NCBI GenBank assembly: GCA_938027595.1
Contig: CALJAK010000007.1
Coordinates: forward strand, 1 to 64,000
DNA: 64,000 nt
Reading direction: 5' to 3'
Source of the DNA: an uncultured Thermoproteales archaeon
GTDB taxonomy: Archaea; Thermoproteota; Thermoprotei; Thermoproteales; Thermoproteaceae
The position numbers and the translations under genes are program-made. Below the pieces are notes generated by a model, which had not been told where the DNA came from, searched no databases, and was given only the letters and a program-made list of their open reading frames with translations. Shown here piece by piece: positions 26,926 through 28,251 of this stretch (the stretch's first letter is position 1; each line of letters starts with the position of its first letter).

Positions 26926-27432
26926 TTATGGAGTGATTTGCAATTGGCGCAAGACTTCTCGAAATATGTAGTTCCAGTTGTCTCTCGTGAGCCATAGAAT
27001 TTCAAAACCCAGCGATTTGGCGAATTGTACGTAGTTTCTATGCACAGTAGCCAACACTCTAGGTGTGTTCACAACGGCGTTCTGCAAACTCTGCATGAAG
27101 TTTGCGCATCTGAACTCCATGGCGCCAATCTCGTCAATAACCAACATGTCACATTTCCTACTTAGAGCCACTTCTATCGCTTTGCATGTGTCTAAAAACA
27201 CTACGTATCTACCCACAGAGGGTTGTCCAACCCCCACTCGCGCCAATGGAGACCTCTCGCGAGTGTATATGTCGACAACGTCAAACCCAACTCTAGAGCC
27301 CCCCTCTCTCACCTCTAAGGTCAAAAATCCACATGGCCGGTCTACCAGCTCTACAACTCTAGACGCCAGAGTAGTCTTCCCCACGCCGGGCATTCCAGAA
27401 ACACCAACTCTGCAATGCGTCAGCCCTTTCAC
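26926..27432 (-). CDS. THEP1-family nucleoside triphosphatase
   Basis: 168 residues. Walker A G-M-P-G-V-G-K-T is at about 13-20 and [14 protein letters not shown] (Walker B with I-D-E-I-G) near 95-108, the pattern of thermophilic NTPase THEP1 (formerly DUF265). Members hydrolyse NTPs and may phosphorylate or clean nucleotides; the cellular role is open. GTG 27432 is the only sensible start before the P-loop, and its first codons are covered by the end of a C/D box sRNA candidate. The promoter must therefore lie in or upstream of that RNA. Confidence 0.85.
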
Positions 27433-27468
27433 GCTACGTCACACGTCGGCTTAGTCTAGCCTCATCAC
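27420..27468 (-). ncRNA. C/D box sRNA candidate between the prenyl synthase and THEP1 genes
   Basis: Minus strand: GTGATGA (C, perfect to RTGATGA), 12 bases, CCGA (D'), CGT, GTGACGT (C'), 12 bases, CTGA (D). It starts right after the TAA stop of the prenyl synthase gene and ends inside the first four codons of the THEP1-like gene. The D' guide (complement of 27450-27461) matches ten bases of the D arm of the tRNA-Gly in this window (TAGTCTAGCC). By the N+5 rule this would direct 2'-O-methylation at G10; that target is inferred. The geometry equals the other two good candidates. Confidence 0.7.
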
Positions 27469-28251
27469 TTACAACTTTTGTGAAATTGTGAGTGCACCCT
27501 CCAGCGCTTTGTTAATTAAATATTTTACTAACTTCTCAAACGGTGACAAATCTCCAACCGCTCTTCTGATTTTGGTTAGTAAGTTCTTTACTTCAGAAGC
27601 TACGGCGGACATCTGACTTCTCTCTACTTTCTCGTCGGCATAGTCGTCTGAATATTGGTAAAGAACTCCCAGCGACCTACCCAGCGACTTCACCGACTCT
27701 ATTAAGTCCCGCCTGCCAAGTATCACAGTCGGCATGACTAACGACGCCTCGATCAAGGGGGCAGTTTTGTACTCGGCTGCCTTTTCAAACTCTCTATCTA
27801 AGTCGAGGGCTTGACCTATAGACAATCTCTGAGCCACCTCTGCCAAATAGTTAACTATCTCGGGGCCCAGCCTCATGGCTCTCTTTATGGACTCGGCGAT
27901 TAACCAATCGCTGGCTACTATAGACCTTTCGTCTCCATATAGAACGCGCGGCGTCTTTACACCTCGCCTCTCTTCATGTCTATCCATCACGTCGTCTTGG
28001 AGAAGGGAAACTATATGTAACAACTCCACTATCACAGCCGCCTCTAGCACTCTAGGGTCTATCACAGACCTCCTGTCTAGACTATAGGAAAAAGTCAAGA
28101 GGAGTGTGGGGCGTAGTAGTTTGCCGGGGGTCTCCACGTAATACCGCACTGTATTTCTCAAACTCTGGGGCTCCAACCCCTCTCCTACTTTGTACAACTG
28201 CAGCTTTACTTGTTCTAAAGCCGTGGAGACTTCTTGTGGCAGTATAGACAC
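27469..28251 (-). CDS. Short-chain polyprenyl (geranylgeranyl) diphosphate synthase
   Basis: 260 residues. The first Asp-rich motif L-L-Q-D-D-V-M-D-R-H-E-E-R-R-G spans 84-98 and the second Q-Y-S-D-D-Y-A-D is near 203-210. LRPTLLLTFSYSL and the GQALDLDREF segment also fit. It condenses isopentenyl diphosphate units to make C15/C20 prenyl chains, needed for archaeal ether lipids. GTG start at 28251. Family members of this short length (under 300 residues) are common in Thermoproteales. Confidence 0.9.
   Translation of the reverse strand: MSILPQEVSTALEQVKLQLYKVGEGLEPQSLRNTVRYYVETPGKLLRPTLLLTFSYSLDRRSVIDPRVLEAAVIVELLHIVSLLQDDVMDRHEERRGVKTPRVLYGDERSIVASDWLIAESIKRAMRLGPEIVNYLAEVAQRLSIGQALDLDREFEKAAEYKTAPLIEASLVMPTVILGRRDLIESVKSLGRSLGVLYQYSDDYADEKVERSQMSAVASEVKNLLTKIRRAVGDLSPFEKLVKYLINKALEGALTISQKL

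Follow-up and report, generated by a model that had tools for sequence, protein, structure and literature searches.

The minus strand of the 64 kb window analyzed here, from a heat-loving archaeon (the window being the whole stretch of DNA) carries a polyprenyl synthetase gene (27469..28251) followed by a gene for a THEP1-like NTPase (Pfam NTPase_1; 26926..27432), and the bases at their junction (27468-27420) read as a box C/D sRNA that holds the start codon of the second gene. A stretch that could be a gene junction, a guide RNA, and a translation start at once raises the question of which of these roles selection maintains, and of what the two guides would act upon.

Box Layout and Genomic Setting

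On the minus strand, the element consists of a C box (GTGATGA, 27468-27462), a 12-nt D' guide (GGCTAGACTAAG, 27461-27450), a D' box (CCGA, 27449-27446), a 3-nt spacer (CGT, 27445-27443), a C' box (GTGACGT, 27442-27436), a 12-nt D guide (AGCGTGAAAGGG, 27435-27424), and a D box (CTGA, 27423-27420). The preliminary description of this DNA had proposed the compact layout GTGATGA-12-CCGA-3-GTGACGT-12-CTGA, beginning right after the prenyl synthase stop codon, and the boxes lie exactly there: the TAA occupies 27471-27469 and the C box abuts it from 27468. The element is real, was correctly placed, and is of a known kind. It has the C (RUGAUGA) and D (CUGA) boxes of archaeal C/D sRNAs together with slightly degenerate internal D' (CCGA) and C' (GUGACGU) boxes, and its guide regions, from C to D' and from C' to D, are both within the 10-12 nt typical of such RNAs.

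Strict and loose C/D search patterns each returned one match in the 64 kb, which is this element, and none in 100 first-order Markov simulations of the window's composition. An Rfam search over the sRNA stretch gave no family above the cut-off, and the sub-threshold matches that span the whole element, to the archaeal CD-box sRNAs sR12 (E 0.13) and sR2 (E 0.11), are weak. The window genome (assembly G000; 1.24 Mb, 24 contigs, 96.5% complete) encodes a THEP1 protein whose closest named relatives belong to Pyrobaculum.

Conservation Across Two Genera

A 91-base DNA query against 61 genomes recovered the element in all 11 same-genus (Pyrobaculum) genomes and in five of six genomes of a sister genus, so the search for the same box layout in relatives that the preliminary description had offered as a check turned out in its favor. 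The query matched 20 genomes; the four others (G031, G032, G048, and G050) contain only a short, unrelated-looking match. Within the element, D guide bases 2-12 and the D box are invariant in 16/16 genomes, and the 15-mer that they form (GCGTGAAAGGGCTGA) has a single exact copy per genome in this set and no copy at all in the 65 further genomes searched within the class. The D' guide is constant at bases 2-4 and 6-8 in all 16 genomes, has A (11 genomes) or G (five) at base 5, and is unlike between the two genera in its 3' part. The C box reads RTGATGA in every same-genus genome and is degenerate across the five sister-genus genomes (TGACGA, TGAGGA, TGAAGA, TGGAGA). Position 1 of both guides is free, the flanks vary, and the D'-C' spacer varies freely in sequence and is 3 or 4 bases long in Pyrobaculum, while boxes and guide cores stay constant, a pattern of conservation expected of an RNA. 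Selection acts on the RNA itself, because species differ in how THEP1 relates to the D guide stretch: the gene reads it in one of two frames, or begins only after it.

Two of the short matches were inspected more closely. The one in G032, a genome from a different family of the same order (L018, minus strand near 1509), reads GTGACGA-GGCTAGACTACG-CTGA where there is no long ORF, and is possibly the same guide with C and D' boxes in an independent sRNA; it was left uncounted because no good D box was found. The match in G048 sits inside a long ORF and looks like chance.

The D' Guide and tRNA G10

Guides of this class pair with rRNA or tRNA such that the target base lies five bases upstream of the D or D' box. 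The D' guide has such a match at tRNA position G10, and the D guide has none that convinces. The preliminary description had assigned the D' guide to tRNA-Gly on the basis of ten consecutive complementary bases. The tRNA-Gly(CCC) gene in the window (14506-14401, minus strand, limits read by eye) carries TAGTCTAGCC at 14499-14490, where tRNA bases 8-17 are complementary to guide nucleotides 1-10 and the target base is G10 (U8-A9-G10). This gene, which apparently has two introns, in the anticodon region and in the T arm, is absent from the listings of ARAGORN and of Rfam at its cut-off.

The ten-base match and the G10 register therefore held up, but the specificity for glycine did not. Of 14 TAGTCTAGCC sites in the window genome, six belong to tRNA D arms: three in Gly genes, two in Pro-like genes, and one in Glu(CTC), where all three Gly genes and part of the anticodons were identified by eye. 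A seventh is the complement of the sRNA itself, and the remaining seven do not resemble tRNA. More broadly, 13 of the 41 tRNA loci, a denominator that includes three loci whose D arm was not located (L034 lies near a contig end), carry UAGUCUAGC and form 9 or 10 consecutive Watson-Crick pairs with the D' guide, placing G10 five positions upstream of D'. Pairing extends over 10 bp for the Gly, Pro-like, and Glu tRNAs and over 9 bp for Ala, Val-like, and His-like tRNAs, and three more loci reach 9/10 pairs with an internal mismatch. The best score of the guide against the 41 loci (20) exceeds that of all 60 shuffled guides (maximum 18).

A simple search pattern finds AGGAT or TGAT downstream in 9 of the 13 UAGUCUAGC loci, which is consistent with a G10-U25 pair in our own numbering; m2,2G10 has been seen in a tRNA class with that pair (PMC7668247). 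Since G10 is known in archaea as a base-methylated position (m2G/m2,2G by Trm11; PMC6313347), ribose methylation there is not a given; a ribose-methylated G10 has been tentatively assigned in Pyrococcus furiosus tRNA-Glu(CUC) (PMC7668247). The tRNA target leaves one feature of the guide unexplained, because most of these tRNAs leave its last two bases (AG) unpaired, although 10 of the 11 same-genus genomes conserve them.

The sister genus narrows the set of candidates. D' guides there read GGCUGGACGNNG or similar, and the Gly and Pro tRNAs, which keep A9, pair with them at only 7-9 of 10 positions. The sister-genus tRNA-Glu has C9, and four of the five guides place a G opposite it, whereas the corresponding pair in Pyrobaculum is A9 with U; the guide of the fifth genome (G018) has A opposite base 9, without the compensating G. 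The A to G change at guide base 5 still permits a G-U pair with U13. In G016, a Glu tRNA is the sole locus with 9/10 pairs (1/40, six loci lacking a located D arm); another Glu locus (L207), for which no D arm was located in that count, pairs equally well in a separate comparison. In G015, a Glu tRNA pairs at 10/10 positions, with two G-U pairs among them, and nine or more pairs form at five of the 35 loci (six with no D arm located). Since base 9 of tRNA-Glu and the guide base facing it changed in concert in the sister genus, tRNA-Glu makes the best target common to both genera, and we read this as one compensating change, not a series, that would keep it as a target.

The tRNA loci had further features of their own. 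Glu and Asp loci of several genomes (L100-L103, L106, L109, L112-L115, L117, L118, L123-L125, and L128) share similar, hairpin-like inserts in the acceptor stem, laid out as a GCCCCGG exon piece, a GGGG-GCCGTAGCC...GGCTAC-CCCA-like stretch, and then CCGGTAG; they give the impression of a single intron that has spread between tRNA genes and between species. In the window, an intron-containing tRNA listed by Rfam only (46077-45968, minus strand) resembles a tRNA-Ile(GAT) whose D and T arms contain inserts.

The Invariant D Guide

The element had been called a dual guide, a label that is not borne out: the D guide found no convincing target in rRNAs, SRP RNA, or the tRNAs examined. A scan of the rRNAs that allowed G-U pairs reached a best score of 12, under typical shuffled maxima; the best score against SRP RNA was 10, and no tRNA examined rose above chance. 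Comparison with spliced-tRNA junctions yielded scattered candidates only, which differ by genome. Two specific candidates, the 3' region of 16S rRNA (SSU 1353-1364) and U34 of tRNA-Gly(UCC), were rejected because each has a mismatch beside the target base and a chance-level score.

Searches for the guide's complement were equally sparse. The sRNA is the sole site of the 11-mer CCCTTTCACGC in 7 of the 11 same-genus genomes, with one further site in each of the other four. For 5S rRNA and RNase P RNA, coverage came from the 9-mer CTTTCACGC alone. Counting the sRNA, this 9-mer occurs at 12 places in the window genome and at nine in G016; Rfam, which the RNase P RNA of this group may escape, recognized five tRNAs among 20 of these 21 loci (the window's own sRNA, L142, being omitted), none of them at the 9-mer itself. 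Apart from the sRNA, no pair of CTTTCACGC sites falls at matching places of homologous genes in both genera. To judge from its invariance, the D guide is under strong constraint, for a merely tolerated sequence would not be invariant.

A Start Codon Inside the sRNA

The preliminary description had the sRNA ending within the first THEP1-like codons. The overlap is indeed real: the GTG start of the THEP1 ORF occupies 27432-27430 on the minus strand, inside the D guide. When THEP1 starts were located by walking back in frame from the P-loop, eight relatives proved to use a different arrangement. The ATG of the C' box (ATGACGT) is the upstream-most in-frame start in 8 of the 11 same-genus genomes and the sole start in six of those eight, G003 and G007 having TTG alternatives. 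In the window genome, the in-frame TGA of the C' box closes the frame upstream and leaves the D guide GTG as the sole start, so that the same nucleotides are read as ATG-ACG-... in eight relatives and in another frame, with GTG-AAA-GGG, in the window genome. A start codon thus lies inside the sRNA in 9 of 16 genomes (eight ATG in C', one GTG in the D guide).

In the remaining seven (G005, G008, and all five sister-genus genomes) a THEP1 start lies downstream, so the sRNA stretch need not be coding there. G008 (L012) and G005 (L010) keep the sRNA with THEP1 starts about 70 and about 245-255 bases past the D box, respectively, so either they have lost the overlap or it never arose in them. The THEP1 frame is also open back into the sRNA in G014, G015, and G018 of the sister genus. 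Whichever arrangement a genome has, the nucleotide sequence of the D guide is identical. Because the sRNA is equally conserved where no overlap is needed, the overlap is better seen as a later accident tolerated by the cell.

Where the overlap exists, one RNA molecule could plausibly yield either the sRNA or THEP1 but not both, as the preliminary description had suggested, because a transcript processed to the sRNA could not make THEP1 when the THEP1 start lies within the sRNA; separate transcripts could supply both. Our literature search found no publication that links THEP1 with an archaeal box sRNA.

Proposed Assembly and Processing

Our best explanation, to which we give a probability of roughly 80%, is that the element yields the RNA of a standard C/D sRNP whose D' guide directs a predicted ribose methylation of G10, with tRNA-Glu as the target common to both genera. 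In archaeal C/D sRNPs, L7Ae binds the C/D k-turn and the C'/D' k-loop, and Nop5 and fibrillarin join (PMC7994747). L7Ae would recognize these two motifs here, Nop5 and fibrillarin would then assemble with the sRNA, the D' guide would pair with the tRNA D arm, and fibrillarin would methylate the G10 ribose facing the fifth guide base upstream of D'. The D arm of tRNA-Glu would be targeted in both genera, and in Pyrobaculum the same guide may also serve Gly, Pro, Val, Ala, and His type tRNAs with a UAGUCUAGC D arm.

How the sRNA would be produced seems to vary. Ten of the 16 genomes have a TATA-like element (TTTATA, TTATA, or TTTTTA) that starts 59-64 bases ahead of the D guide GCG and about 25 before the C box; the simple search pattern found none in the window genome, G010, G009, G015, G014, or G012. 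In both the window genome and G010, the prenyl synthase ORF reaches as far as the C box, and for that reason the sRNA is there most simply cut from the prenyl synthase transcript. In the window genome, which shows no promoter of the sRNA's own, it would be trimmed out of a prenyl synthase(-THEP1) transcript. According to a review of these RNAs, most archaeal C/D sRNAs lack their own promoter (PMC7994747).

Alternative Readings

Stop codons UGA and start codons AUG and GUG resemble C and D boxes and abound at gene junctions, so the stretch might be nothing but coding DNA and an intergenic junction with coincidental boxes. To this we give hardly any credence, since 16 genomes of two genera keep the element although the downstream frame differs and seven of them start THEP1 further downstream, since the spacer varies while the boxes do not, and since the simulated windows gave no match at all. 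A subtler view is that the element mainly regulates THEP1, with L7Ae on a k-loop that includes the start codon blocking translation and the guide role being secondary. Such an effect is possible because k-turns in the leaders or coding sequence of Sulfolobus mRNAs are described as sites through which L7Ae represses translation (PMC5539422), and the ATG start is the first three bases of C' in 8 of 11 same-genus genomes. Regulation cannot, however, be what maintains the sRNA, because the sRNA is equally conserved in the sister genus and in the two of 11 same-genus genomes with a downstream start, where the overlap looks secondary; we regard regulation as the main role as quite unlikely.

Other readings keep the guide RNA but change its targets. 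The D' guide might act on 23S rRNA at LSU 423-434 (CUUAGUUUUGCC, G427), instead of or besides tRNA, an assignment we find rather unlikely. At this site the guide pairs at 11 of its 12 positions, with one G-U pair among them and one mismatch, and the pairing takes in the 3' AG that the tRNAs leave unpaired. A G again stands at the +5 target position, the Rfam LSU model places the site in a hairpin loop, and the score of 19 exceeds the maxima of 60 shuffled rRNAs (at most 18). The mismatch, however, falls within the duplex, and the guides of the sister genus (GGCUGGACGUCG, GGCUGGACGAGG, and others) lose the rRNA-specific 3' bases but preserve the core that pairs with tRNA. For the D guide, the best structured candidate, a weak one, is U34 of tRNA-Glu(UUC), which would make the element a dual guide on one tRNA that is also the common G10 target. 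The guide pairs with the anticodon arm GCCUUUCGAGCC, which reads GGGCCUUUCGAGCC in several relatives of both genera, over seven consecutive positions (one G-U) plus three more (10/12), U34 lies exactly at +5, and PMC7668247 reports archaeal tRNAs with ribose-methylated uridines at position 34 as well as the tentative G10 modification of a tRNA-Glu noted above. We consider this improbable, however, as there are mismatches beside box D and within the duplex, the score of 15 is beaten by 13 of 40 shuffled guides against the window-genome tRNAs, an invariant guide ought to fit its target better, and tRNA-Glu(UUC) was not seen in the window genome's assembly. A long shot of similar standing is that the D guide, 11 bases of which are invariant over both genera while the D' guide drifts, acts on a strongly selected substrate other than rRNA or a simply paired tRNA, such as a spliced, edited, or messenger RNA, and that the capture of the THEP1 start by C' couples guide RNP assembly to translation of the NTPase.

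Comparison With Known Systems

The element is ordinary as a class, and the constancy of its D guide is the part worth following. It offers a clean natural case for the role of archaeal C/D guides without known targets, since here one such guide is more conserved than its targeted partner, and for possible competition between sRNA processing and translation where an sRNA contains a start codon. The species series, from no overlap through ATG in C' to GTG in the D guide, would allow a comparative test of such competition.

The sRNA, ordinary in kind, probably belongs to one of the 110 C/D families that Lui et al. (2018, cited in PMC7994747) published for six species of Pyrobaculum. As these families are described in that review, the element shares their box consensus, 12-nt guides, 3-4 nt D'-C' spacer, length of about 50 nt, pairing of a tRNA guide with a guide lacking an evident target, and position at a gene junction; it shows no structural difference from them, although here the targetless guide is the more conserved one. 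Against Rfam sR12 (RF01147) and sR2 (RF01139), the box spacing is alike and the guides differ, and the scores of 16.4 and 16.0 bits fall below the gathering scores of 38 and 42; the element belongs to neither family. A Pyrobaculum aerophilum C/D guide for tRNA Cm56 (PMC6313347) likewise acts on a tRNA, at a T loop position and with another guide.

Overlap with a downstream start also has precedent, for C/D sRNAs overlapped the 5' end of an ORF in 7% of the genes investigated in six archaea, and such overlaps lowered reporter transcription (Tripp et al., 2017, as summarized in PMC7994747). Compared with the overlaps summarized there, the present element differs in that both neighbors touch the sRNA in one genome, with one stop codon abutting it and one start codon inside it, and in that the start codon occupies two different parts of the same sRNA family depending on the species.
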